DNA of 43,755 nt from Candidatus Cloacimonadota bacterium (GTDB taxonomy: Bacteria; Cloacimonadota; Cloacimonadia; Cloacimonadales; TCS61): contig JASUTE010000013.1 in the NCBI GenBank assembly GCA_030445745.1, positions 1 through 43,755 of the forward strand. The letters are read 5' to 3'. Of this stretch, positions 19,542 through 23,306 are shown piece after piece (the stretch's first letter is position 1; the number at the start of each line of letters is the position of its first letter). Made by a program: the position numbers and the translations under genes. Under the pieces are notes generated by a model that was given only the letters and a program-made list of their open reading frames with translations, had not been told where the DNA came from and made no database searches.

Positions 19542-20221
19542 ATGAATTCCCGAGTTTTAGCTGTTAACCATGGTACTACTGCAACCAAAATTGCCATGTA
19601 TTACGATGATAAAGCTATTTTTACAGAGATTATAAGTCATGATCCCGACAAAGTTGTTTCTTTTGGTGATATCATTTAATAATACCAGAATACGAATGGC
19701 GTCAAGAACAAGAATTATTGCTAGCTATGCAACAGCACGATATCAACCCGAAAGTTTGCAAGCTGTAGTTGGTCGGGGAGGGCTTAGTAAACCTATACCC
19801 GGTGGTACTTACAAGGTGAAACGACAAGATGCTAACTGATGTGAAGAATCCCGAGCTGTGCAGACCTGTTCACGCTTCCAATTTGGGTGCTTTTATTGCC
19901 CATTCTATTGATCGGCAATACGACATTCCCGCCTGTATTGTAGATCCGGTTACTGTGGACGAATCCGAGGATATCGCTCGCATCTCTGGACATCCCAAAA
20001 TAGAAAGAAAATCGCTATTTCATGCCCTTAATATTCGCTATATTTTGCGTCAACTCACCTCTAAAATAGAGAAAAAGATGAGTCAATGCAATATGGTCGC
20101 AGCACATATAGGTGGCGGCATTAGTGTGGCTCCTATAAAACAGGTAAAAGTTGTAGATGTTAATAATAATGCTGTTTGGGGTAGGTGGCCTTTTTCTCCT
20201 CAAAGATGTGGTGCTTGGCTC
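19542..20221 (+). pseudogene. butyrate kinase, N-terminal ~60% with frameshifts
   Basis: From ATG 19542 (GGAG seven bases upstream) the translation RVLAVNHGTTATKIAMY is the butyrate/acetate kinase N-terminus. It is interrupted by three single-base shifts: about 19676-19685, about 19748 and about 19820. Between them the parts read EYEWRQEQELLLAMQQHD, LQAVVGRGGLSKPIPGGTY, then ASNLGAFIAHSI, VDPVTVDESEDIARISGHP, RKSLFHALN, AAHIGGGISV and PFSPQRCG. All match butyrate kinase order and are collinear. The last ~140 residues are absent: similarity ends at about 20221, where the frame enters the clostripain-like lipoprotein gene. Butyrate kinase makes ATP from butyryl phosphate; this copy cannot. Confidence 0.82.
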
Positions 20222-20227
20222 CGGCGT

Positions 20228-21403
20228 TTGTTTCTTGTACTTATCCTTATTTTTATCATAAGTGGCTGCACCTTTTCCACATCGCCCACAACACCTACTG
20301 AATGGACTATCTTAGTTTACATGGCTGCTGATAATGGTTTGAATAATAACGCTATTGAAGACATTGAGCAAATGAAAGAAGCTAATTTTAGCGATGAAGT
20401 AAATGTAATAGTACAAGTAGATTACAATGAAGATAGCAATTATGAAGGTGCTAAACGCTACCAAATTTTTCCGGGCGCTGCTAATGAACTGGCCAAGTTG
20501 GGTGAGATTGATAGTGGGTCCTATACAACTTTGGCAAATTTTATAAACTGGGGCACTGATCGCTTTCCGGCGCATAATTATGCACTTTTTTTGTGGGGTC
20601 ATGGCAATGGCTGGTATAACCATAATTTAGAAACCGTATTTATGCCCGATCATCAAGCAAATTCCTACTTCAATATTCCCGCAGGTGATTTGCGCAATGC
20701 TTTACGATTGAGCTACCAAAAAATGGATATTATTGCTTTCGATGCATGTAATATGTTCACTATGGAAGTTTTAGCAGAAGTAGCGCCCTATACAAATTTT
20801 ATTGTAGGTTCTGAAGATACGGTTCCACAACAGGGTTTCCCCTATGATAAAATACTTACCAACTGGGAAAATTATATTCAGCCTGCTAACATTGTTGTGG
20901 ATATAACAAACTGTTATGTTAATTCCTACCTGCCATTTGGCAGCCAAAACTTGGATGGCAGTTATTTAGGAACTATTGCTATAGCAGCAGCCAATTCTGC
21001 TAATTTCCAAAATTTGGAAACCAAAATAGAGCAATTTATTCAACAAAACCCCTATTTTGCTGCAGAATCTGTGTTCCAACAAGCCCGCGATAACTGCGAA
21101 TATGAATTTAACGACTTACAGGTGGATATCGATGTGAAAGAGTTCTTTCATAATTTGGCTGCAAGCTGGCAAGAACATCCACCCTTGTTAAATGATATTT
21201 TAAATCAAATAGCTGCAACTTTTATCGCTCAGCAGTATTTACAATTCCCCGATGATTTTTCTAACCAGATAGGCTCAGCTGTTTTATGGCTACCAGATAA
21301 GACGCATCAATATGTTTATACCGACTTAGTAATTCAGTACAGAAATTTACTTTTTGATGTCGAAACTAACTGGAGCGACTTCATAGCTGAGTTTTATGAT
21401 TAG
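20228..21403 (+). CDS. clostripain-like (C11) cysteine peptidase lipoprotein
   Basis: A C11-family peptidase of about 391 residues from TTG 20228. It has a short lipoprotein signal peptide with lipobox IISGC (Cys14), then EWTILVYMAADNGLNN, the catalytic His125 in LWGHGNGW and Cys174 in FDACNM, both typical of clostripain/gingipain-like enzymes that cut after basic residues. The original start appears lost: there is no ATG, and the frame is open and continuous with the butyrate kinase relic upstream (from 19829), reading GAWLRRLFLVLILIF across the junction. It may be translated from the TTG, as a fusion, or not at all. No ribosome binding site fits the TTG. Confidence 0.7.
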   Translation: MFLVLILIFIISGCTFSTSPTTPTEWTILVYMAADNGLNNNAIEDIEQMKEANFSDEVNVIVQVDYNEDSNYEGAKRYQIFPGAANELAKLGEIDSGSYTTLANFINWGTDRFPAHNYALFLWGHGNGWYNHNLETVFMPDHQANSYFNIPAGDLRNALRLSYQKMDIIAFDACNMFTMEVLAEVAPYTNFIVGSEDTVPQQGFPYDKILTNWENYIQPANIVVDITNCYVNSYLPFGSQNLDGSYLGTIAIAAANSANFQNLETKIEQFIQQNPYFAAESVFQQARDNCEYEFNDLQVDIDVKEFFHNLAASWQEHPPLLNDILNQIAATFIAQQYLQFPDDFSNQIGSAVLWLPDKTHQYVYTDLVIQYRNLLFDVETNWSDFIAEFYD

Positions 21404-21420
21404 GAGATTTTTTTTCTCTG

Positions 21421-21628
21421 TTATCCACAGCTTTGTGGATATAATTTTCCTATTTTTCCTGAATTTTGTTTTACCTTTGCTCCTAACCCCCAAAGATAGA
21501 CCGATTACAGGATTTTCTTTTATGTGGATAACTTGTGTATAAAAGCTTGCGCGCTCTGATATATTTTTTTAAGTCCTTATATTTTCAACGGTTATGGATG
21601 TAGATAATTAAGATTATTTTGTGAATAA
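21421..21628. other. cluster of DnaA-box-like 9-mers, candidate replication origin
   Basis: Four sequences match TTATNCACA exactly: TTATCCACA at 21421-21429 (+), TTATCCACA at 21523-21531 (-), TTATACACA at 21534-21542 (-) and TTATTCACA at 21620-21628 (-). A fifth, ATATCCACA at 21434-21442 (-), differs in one base and forms a perfect 8-base palindrome with the first around GCTT. The paired boxes 3 bases apart resemble known oriC/dnaA arrangements. An AT-rich run (21558-21587) could be the unwinding element. The region between the C11 gene and the SRP RNA has no gene. Against origin function, the highly expressed rpo/rps block to the right points toward it. The first palindrome could also act as a weak terminator. 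Confidence 0.5.
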
Positions 21629-21711
21629 CTCACTGTTTCTTTGTTATAGTTGCTTTTATATTGTTTAGTAGAATAAAAATTGATTTGCTTTTCACTGTAA
21701 AATTGCAAAGC

Positions 21712-21740
21712 TTGACATAATAGTTAGTAGGAAAAATTAT
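21712..21740 (+). promoter_or_regulatory. promoter of the SRP RNA
   Basis: TTGACA (21712-21717) is followed by a 17-base spacer and AATTAT (21735-21740), placing the start of transcription a few bases downstream, at the predicted 5' strand of the SRP RNA closing stem. Confidence 0.6.
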
Positions 21741-21958
21741 GAATTTGGTGTGCTAAGCGGGGAGTTAGCGGTGCCCTGTACTCGCAATCCGCTATAGCGA
21801 GGTCGAATGCCTGTGGAAGAATATCGATTTTCACTTAAAGGTAGAAAAGTGGTGTTGATAATCAAGCCCGGCGCAATTGCAAACTGTGAACCGTGTCAGG
21901 TCCGGAAGGAAGCAGCACTAAGCAGAGCTTGGAATGTGCCGCCGGTACACTTGGTTTG
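21741..21958 (+). ncRNA. ffs: signal recognition particle RNA, large bacterial type
   Basis: The S-domain hairpin that binds Ffh is plain: GTGTCAGGTCCGGAAGGAAG then CAGCACTAAGC (about 21892-21923). Upstream, GGGGAGTTAGCGGTGCCCTG with CAATCCGCTATAGCGAGG (about 21759-21805) is the Alu-domain 5' part found in large (about 260-base) SRP RNAs. The ends pair: GGTGTGC near 21748-21754 with GTACACT near 21946-21952. It guides ribosomes making membrane and secreted proteins to FtsY. Exact ends are estimates. Confidence 0.9.
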
Positions 21959-22034
21959 AGCTAACTATCTATTCTTTTCTTGAAATAGATATCGACCACG
22001 GGCTGCACACCAATTTTCTAACAGGAGATTCTTT

Positions 22035-23306
22035 ATGGCAGGCAAATACAAAGTTCCGCGTGGTACTTACGATATTTTACCATCTGAAAGCTACAAGTGG
22101 CAATTTATTACCCAAAAATTCCGAGAAATAGCCCATCTTTTCAATTACCGCGAAATAATTACACCTATATTCGAGAGTTCTGGCTTATTCGAGCGCAGTG
22201 TGGGAGGTAATTCCGATATTGTGCAAAAAGAAATGTATAAATTCAAGGATAAAAAAGGCCGTCAATTTGCTTTACGTCCAGAAGGAACAGCACCAGTTGT
22301 GCGTTCCTACATAGAAAACAGCCTGCAAATGCAGCCAAATGCTTCCAAACTTTACTACATTGCCCCCATGTTTCGCTATGATAGACCGCAAAAGGGACGC
22401 TATCGTCAGTTTTATCAGTATGGCGTTGAAAATATTGGTAGCGAAAATCCAGCTTACGATGCCGAGGTAATTGCTATGGGTTATATATTTTTGGAAAAAT
22501 TGGGTTTGCAAAATTTCTCTTTGGAAATAAATTCCATTGGCTGCAGCAACTGTAGCCAAGACTACGACAAAGCACTTATTGAGTATTTTTCTCAATATGA
22601 AGCAGAACTATGCAAGGATTGCCGAAATCGTTTACAGAAAAACCCTAAACGGGTTTTAGATTGTAAGGTGCCCACATGTAGGAAAATCGCTCAAAATGCT
22701 CCTTCTATGCTAGATTATCTGGACGAAGATTGCCAAAATCACTTTGAAAAAGTGCAAAAATACCTGCAAGAGATGAACATTCCCTTTACAGTTAATCCCA
22801 AAATCGTGCGCGGACTGGATTACTATACTCAAACCGCTTTCGAATTTTTGAACAATAATCTGGGAGCACAAAATGCAGTTTGTGGTGGCGGCCGCTACAA
22901 TGGTTTATTTCAACAACTTGGGGGACAAAATACGCCTGCAATTGGTTTTGCCGGCGGCATGGAACGTCTGATTCTTTCTATGGAAAATGAAGGCCTGAGC
23001 TTTGGTGAAGAACCCCATCCACAAGCCTTCGTAGTAGCATTAGGAGACGAAGCAAAAGAATTTAGTTTATCATTAGTACACAAATTGCGTAATGAAAAGA
23101 TCGCCACCGATACTTCCTATGAAAAAAATTCCCTAAAAGCACAAATGAAAGCAGCAGATAAATCTAACGCTCTCTACTGTCTTATTTTAGGCGATGACGA
23201 GTTGAAGACTGATACAGTTACTATAAAAAATATGAAAACTGGAGAACAAAAACAAATTCCTCTTGCCACGCTAGTCCAAGCTATAAAGCAAAGAACTTTA
23301 GTTTAG
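22035..23306 (+). CDS. hisS: histidyl-tRNA synthetase
   Basis: A 423-residue class II synthetase that charges tRNA(His). It opens YKVPRGTYDILP, has motif 2 FALRPEGTAPVVRSYIEN and RYDRPQKGRYRQFYQYGVE, the histidine-binding VRGLDYYTQTAFEF, GGGRYNGL, and motif 3 GFAGGMERL. The C-terminal ~90 residues form the anticodon-binding domain. AGGAG lies 8 bases before the ATG. It follows the SRP RNA by about 75 bases and has no obvious terminator of its own before the groES promoter region. Confidence 0.95.
   Translation: MAGKYKVPRGTYDILPSESYKWQFITQKFREIAHLFNYREIITPIFESSGLFERSVGGNSDIVQKEMYKFKDKKGRQFALRPEGTAPVVRSYIENSLQMQPNASKLYYIAPMFRYDRPQKGRYRQFYQYGVENIGSENPAYDAEVIAMGYIFLEKLGLQNFSLEINSIGCSNCSQDYDKALIEYFSQYEAELCKDCRNRLQKNPKRVLDCKVPTCRKIAQNAPSMLDYLDEDCQNHFEKVQKYLQEMNIPFTVNPKIVRGLDYYTQTAFEFLNNNLGAQNAVCGGGRYNGLFQQLGGQNTPAIGFAGGMERLILSMENEGLSFGEEPHPQAFVVALGDEAKEFSLSLVHKLRNEKIATDTSYEKNSLKAQMKAADKSNALYCLILGDDELKTDTVTIKNMKTGEQKQIPLATLVQAIKQRTLV

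Follow-up and report, generated by a model that had tools for sequence, protein, structure and literature searches.

What function is served by a dense cluster of DnaA boxes that lies in gene-free DNA, away from dnaA? We addressed this question for the intergenic region at positions 21404–21748 of a Cloacimonadota contig. The stretch analysed (hereafter the window) is the whole of this 43,755-base contig, named C11, from a 2.04-Mb genome in 38 contigs; the gene on the 5' side of the cluster happens to encode a peptidase of family C11 and is referred to below as the C11 gene. An earlier note on this DNA had proposed the cluster as a candidate oriC, with DnaA titration or regulation of neighbouring genes as alternatives. 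The comparison reported here establishes that the boxes are conserved across relatives, that they follow a near-fixed geometry in a single copy per genome, and that they are separate from oriC. From these sequence patterns we favour, with moderate confidence, the interpretation that the site is a conserved extra-oriC control element at which DnaA would assemble into a complex that lowers the amount of DnaA available for initiation. The cluster thus interpreted probably helps to control the timing of replication start.

The window contains four exact copies of the DnaA box TTATNCACA and two one-mismatch copies, rather than the single one counted previously, arranged as follows.

21421–21429, plus strand: outer DnaA box, TTATCCACA, exact match, in the opposite direction to the others and shortly after the stop codon of the C11 gene
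21434–21442, minus strand: one-mismatch box, ATATCCACA, inverted-repeat partner of 21421–21429
21523–21531, minus strand: core DnaA box 1, TTATCCACA, exact match, part of the three-box core of relatives
21534–21542, minus strand: core DnaA box 2, TTATACACA, exact match, 2 bp (11-bp register) from box 1
21570–21594, minus strand: conserved spacer motif, TAACC...TTA, spanning −52 to −28 relative to the box 2 start
21599–21607, minus strand: one-mismatch box, TTATCTACA, within the core spacer
21620–21628, minus strand: core DnaA box 3, TTATTCACA, its start 86 bp from that of box 2

The two boxes of the close pair are separated by 2 bp, and not by the 3 bases reported earlier, which sets them in an 11-bp register. 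The supposed perfect palindrome is an inverted repeat at 21422–21441, with two perfect arms of 8 bp each (TATCCACA and TGTGGATA), but a 4-bp loop separates the arms. Two other descriptions in the earlier note were borne out. The gene-free stretch is indeed AT-rich (71% in 21404–21748 versus 61% in the window), and the clustering exceeds chance: in 400 simulated windows matched for length and dinucleotide content, no stretch of 210 bp contained more than two exact boxes, and random placement of the 155 exact boxes of the genome (against 61 matches for the reversed control pattern) leads to an expectation of ~9e-5 four-box clusters genome-wide. The position of the outer box is lineage-specific, and it is found in many relatives of the same family.

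Comparison with relatives revealed a core made up of the other three exact boxes. This core follows the structure TTATNCACA - 76-80 bp - TTATNCACA - NN - TTATNCACA, with a length of ~106–107 bp. Read on the strand opposite the C11 gene, box 3 comes first, the start of box 2 lies 85–88 bp after that of box 3, and box 1 follows box 2 after a gap of 2 bp. With up to three mismatches allowed, the core was identified at 47 of 62 loci, versus 0 of 1240 shuffles, and the 85–88 bp spacing is present in 41 of the 47 loci that have it. In a scan that covered Cloacimonadota genomes only, the exact core was detected in 40 of 125 whole genomes, in each exactly once and never twice, whereas its reversed control yielded 0 matches in the same 125 genomes. 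Thirty-five of these genomes belong to family f10, which was part of the basis on which the core was defined, and the others to families f1 (including the window), f2 and f6. The gene preceding the f2 match (L077) carries a secretion-tail domain; it is truncated by the end of the contig, and its identity as C11 is therefore not established. At up to two mismatches, 2.76 Mb of fetched DNA contained only this site and a weak match beside dnaA in genome G041 (L042). Likewise, clusters of at least three boxes in 820 kb sampled from genome G043 were restricted to both sides of dnaA and to this site. The cluster is a single-copy element with near-fixed geometry, kept across the Cloacimonadota.

Some further matches were rejected as instances of the site. 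The tandem-box matches L110 and L113, from f9 genomes, fall inside a gene with a lamin-tail domain; in these genomes (G042 and G052) the tandem cluster is contained in a 798-residue open reading frame (8223–10616 in L110 and 9360–11753 in L113), and the L110 frame carries lamin-tail and FlgD-type domains. The L115 match (G012) is located before tyrS, a neighbour of dnaA, and is therefore a dnaA-side cluster.

The distribution of boxes around C11 genes is strongly asymmetric. At 41 C11 loci, 3' flanks totalling 55 kb contain 90 exact boxes, whereas 5' flanks of the same total length contain 8. In a set drawn from named genomes, the Cloacimonadota C11 genes have 111 boxes in 29 kb of sequence on their 3' side, compared with 22 in the remaining 246 kb of the loci; the two sets share genomes and are hence not independent replicates. 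C11 homologues of other phyla had 0 exact boxes in 13 kb of flanks. In many genomes the first box lies no more than ~30 bp from the stop codon of C11, and the pattern beside C11 reaches another order of the class (f13).

The earlier note had suggested examining whether the boxes are conserved upstream of the signal recognition particle (SRP) RNA gene, their 3' neighbour in the window. This arrangement holds for part of the family: the boxes precede the SRP RNA gene in 8 of the 30 genomes whose loci were first compared and occupy another place in many others, and in many f1 genomes 2–11 kb of other genes separate the two. The most constant neighbour in relatives is instead the C11 gene upstream of the site. 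The gene beyond the site varies by family, being TrmH-like, nadC-like, SufS-like, insulinase-like, ABC-F-like (names from inspection of translations) or the SRP RNA gene, and because it differs between families no single promoter explains the conservation. In addition, one gene intervenes between C11 and the boxes in G034, G016 has the core ahead of the SRP RNA gene with no C11 beside it, and in G041 the core is found 5' of C11. These layouts, together with the 2–11 kb present in many f1 genomes between the site and the SRP RNA gene, indicate that it is not part of the promoter of any one neighbour. The element is a unit independent of any one neighbour, with local transcription effects possible. 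The alternative raised earlier, DnaA titration or neighbour regulation, is now the live reading given the strong conservation of the boxes, but control of SRP RNA and hisS as the conserved role is rejected on account of the intervening genes.

We then asked whether the cluster could be the chromosomal origin. The dnaA gene of this genome, correctly described as not nearby, maps to 69 kb of contig C33 and has box clusters on both flanks, an arrangement shared by most of the 30 relatives in which the dnaA locus was examined. Skew was computed on third codon positions, corrected for gene direction, and read on contig C33, on the window and on sampled stretches of G043, a genome of the same order (2,246,820 bases) that is the sole complete one in the comparison. 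The skew check proposed in the earlier note went against an origin at this site: cumulative corrected skew on C33 is minimal at 60–70 kb, within ~10 kb of dnaA, and the corrected skew of the window shows no minimum at the cluster. Moreover, parS-like sites are grouped at 106–116 kb of C33, 37–47 kb from dnaA, and near-exact ones share a contig with dnaA in G002, G037, G056, G057 and G058; in G043 they lie at a distance of 23 kb from dnaA. At two mismatches, control matches to the parS pattern about equalled real ones, and only near-exact matches and dnaA-side clustering were used. In G043 dnaA stands at the start of the record (position 1) and the homologous cluster at 447,171–447,277. Skew in this genome is noisy, lowest near 0–100 kb and highest near 1.1–1.2 Mb, with no switch at 447 kb and positive values on both sides of the cluster.

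A dense DnaA-box cluster beside AT-rich DNA is what an origin would look like, and this resemblance is the argument for the candidate oriC of the earlier note. Since dnaA with its conserved flanking clusters, the skew minimum and the parS-like sites all lie elsewhere, that proposal is rejected, and we regard it as highly improbable. The intergenic space of G043 (family f10) adds to this, as it spans only ~170 bp, 107 of them occupied by the core, and leaves little room for an unwinding region. A second, conditional origin would be compatible with the oriC-like box density and would escape detection by skew, which reports the main origin only; the scarcity of room for an unwinding element in family f10 speaks against it as well, and we consider it very unlikely. 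Upstream of dnaA itself, family f1 genomes (e.g. L051 and L055) present boxes at about −385 (>), −331 (<), −153 (<), −74 (<) and −63 (<), that is, an 11-bp pair with a single box 79 bp off, in reversed order with respect to the core of the site.

To characterize the spacer, we aligned 67 distinct cores in the register of box 2. Conserved columns were apparent at −51 (A, 91%), −30 (T, 82%), −29 (T, 78%), −36 (A, 76%) and −28 (A, 72%), with T or C at −45. Their layout resembles the IHF consensus in reversed orientation: YAANNNNTTG has 13 exact matches versus 2.8 expected, and matches with up to one mismatch fall most often at −52/−53. We infer from this pattern that the spacer motif may be bound by a DNA-bending or regulatory protein. 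The columns beside the boxes also hint, in some of the cores, at degenerate boxes that keep the 11-bp register ahead of box 2 and of box 3, which is what a DnaA array would be expected to show. Two proteins of the HU/IHF family are encoded in the genome; the nearest match is HU-beta for one and IHF for the other, and both score under curated cut-offs. DnaA is full-length, with N-terminal, ATPase and domain IV helix-turn-helix domains. No Hda protein was detected above the cut-off in 13 genomes, a weak negative because only 1 of 14 control genomes passes that cut-off. Two genomes, G010 (C236/C218) and G021 (C303/C119), each returned two full-strength DnaA matches, possibly reflecting a strain mixture or a duplicated dnaA. 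Some genomes only (G049 C118, G021 C405, G029 C131 and G036 C407/C449) contain proteins of ~246–256 residues with a weak match to the DnaA ATPase domain, which are possibly Hda- or IstB-like.

As a conserved, non-coding set of several exact boxes off oriC, the site belongs to the general class of extra-oriC DnaA-box clusters, members of which have been described in Escherichia coli and Bacillus subtilis. Like E. coli datA, it is a single-copy cluster directly downstream of a transcribed gene, with exact-consensus boxes placed at conserved spacing around a bending site, putative in our case. The datA locus lies ~19 bp downstream of glyY, with its box 2 and IHF site 65 bp apart, and its activity is tied to read-through transcription (PMC10950094) and depends on the box-IHF spacing (PMC4585315). 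Unlike the site described here, however, datA occupies a locus of its own, the glyVXY-queG intergenic region, with different neighbours. Because both locus and box layout differ, we do not claim membership of datA. DARS1 and DARS2, compared by their published description only, are also non-coding extra-oriC elements with a three-box core (PMC4585315), but reside in a different organism and locus, and we do not assign the site to them either. In B. subtilis, initiation is restrained by six DnaA-box clusters located outside oriC, which titrate DnaA (PMC13220808, PMC5010248); one region of strong DnaA binding is situated downstream of gcp and ydiF (PMC4447404). These are six sites in one species, whereas the Cloacimonadota have a single fixed-geometry site phylum-wide.

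We infer that DnaA binds the site in vivo, that looping occurs, that a bending protein takes part and that initiation would be held back. Three boxes in the same direction, all near the high-affinity consensus, would nucleate a DnaA complex away from oriC, with the tandem pair (2-bp gap) bound cooperatively and DnaA contacting box 3 across a bent 77-bp spacer, whose motif is probably bound by an HU/IHF-type bending protein. Such a complex may lower active DnaA either through titration or through datA-like inactivation of ATP-DnaA by ATP hydrolysis, the latter following duplication of the site by the replication fork.

Several observations weigh against this interpretation. The site does not share the box geometry of datA, whose boxes form no 11/86-bp core. 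Fifteen of the 62 tested C11 loci lack the core in the expected place at up to three mismatches, some instances having been lost, degenerated or moved. The IHF-like enrichment is modest, with only 2 exact matches to the full IHF consensus. In G043 the site and dnaA are 447 kb apart, a distance that corresponds to 20% of the genome and exceeds the 10 map minutes between datA and oriC (PMC4585315). Finally, the persistent linkage to C11 has no explanation under it.

In a rival reading, the main role of DnaA at the site would be that of a transcription factor or road-block, affecting read-through from C11 or the promoter of the next gene (SRP RNA/hisS in the window). The short distance between the C11 stop codon and the first boxes is consistent with such a role, as is a conserved, promoter-like TTGACA...TATG element of the SRP RNA gene ~85 bp past box 3 in the window, and DnaA is reported to block transcription as a road-block at the asnC terminator and, at datA, to reduce read-through (PMC10950094). 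The next gene nevertheless differs among families, and the core is retained in G016, where C11 is absent, and in G041, where the core stands 5' of C11, which makes a mainly transcriptional role unlikely. We likewise doubt that the site is DARS-like, promoting ADP release and thereby reactivating DnaA and favouring initiation. In E. coli oriC, head-to-tail box pairs with a 2-bp gap favour ATP-DnaA oligomers, and the close boxes of the core, which form such a pair, would be expected to do the same. A structured RNA element in the 3' untranslated region of the C11 transcript would fit a location directly behind a gene, where the DNA may be transcribed. RNAalifold, however, predicted no pair in a 16-sequence alignment, and conservation is restricted to the DnaA boxes in 11-bp register and the spacer motif; conserved RNA structure was accordingly rejected, and we attach almost no probability to this explanation.

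The genes that flank the site in the window are the following.

19829–21403, plus strand: peptidase C11 (clostripain family) gene fused to a butyrate-kinase fragment
21748–22010, plus strand: bacterial large SRP RNA gene (Rfam RF01854, 179.5 bits)
22035–23306, plus strand: hisS, histidyl-tRNA synthetase (Pfam PF13393)

In the first of these, the butyrate-kinase fragment (residues 1–130), which aligns to model positions 90–215 of 351, is joined in frame to the C11 domain (residues ~133–524). In relatives, butyrate kinase and C11 are separate full-length genes, with C11 following the butyrate-kinase gene. Three butyrate-kinase-like matches are also present on contig C14 (27365–29949).

Most of what is established about extra-oriC sites that tune DnaA activity comes from E. 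coli and B. subtilis, and the literature searched contained no description of such a site in the Cloacimonadota. The element reported here occurs once per genome with fixed geometry in two orders of an almost uncultured phylum, which makes the generality of DnaA control directly testable, with dozens of natural core variants to hand. More tentatively, the site may represent a single-copy DnaA control locus of independent origin from datA and DARS, a possibility we rate at somewhat less than even, defined by a rigid 11/86-bp three-box core, a dedicated spacer-binding protein and one place phylum-wide. If this is true, it would be the main switch of DnaA activity in bacteria without a recognisable Hda.
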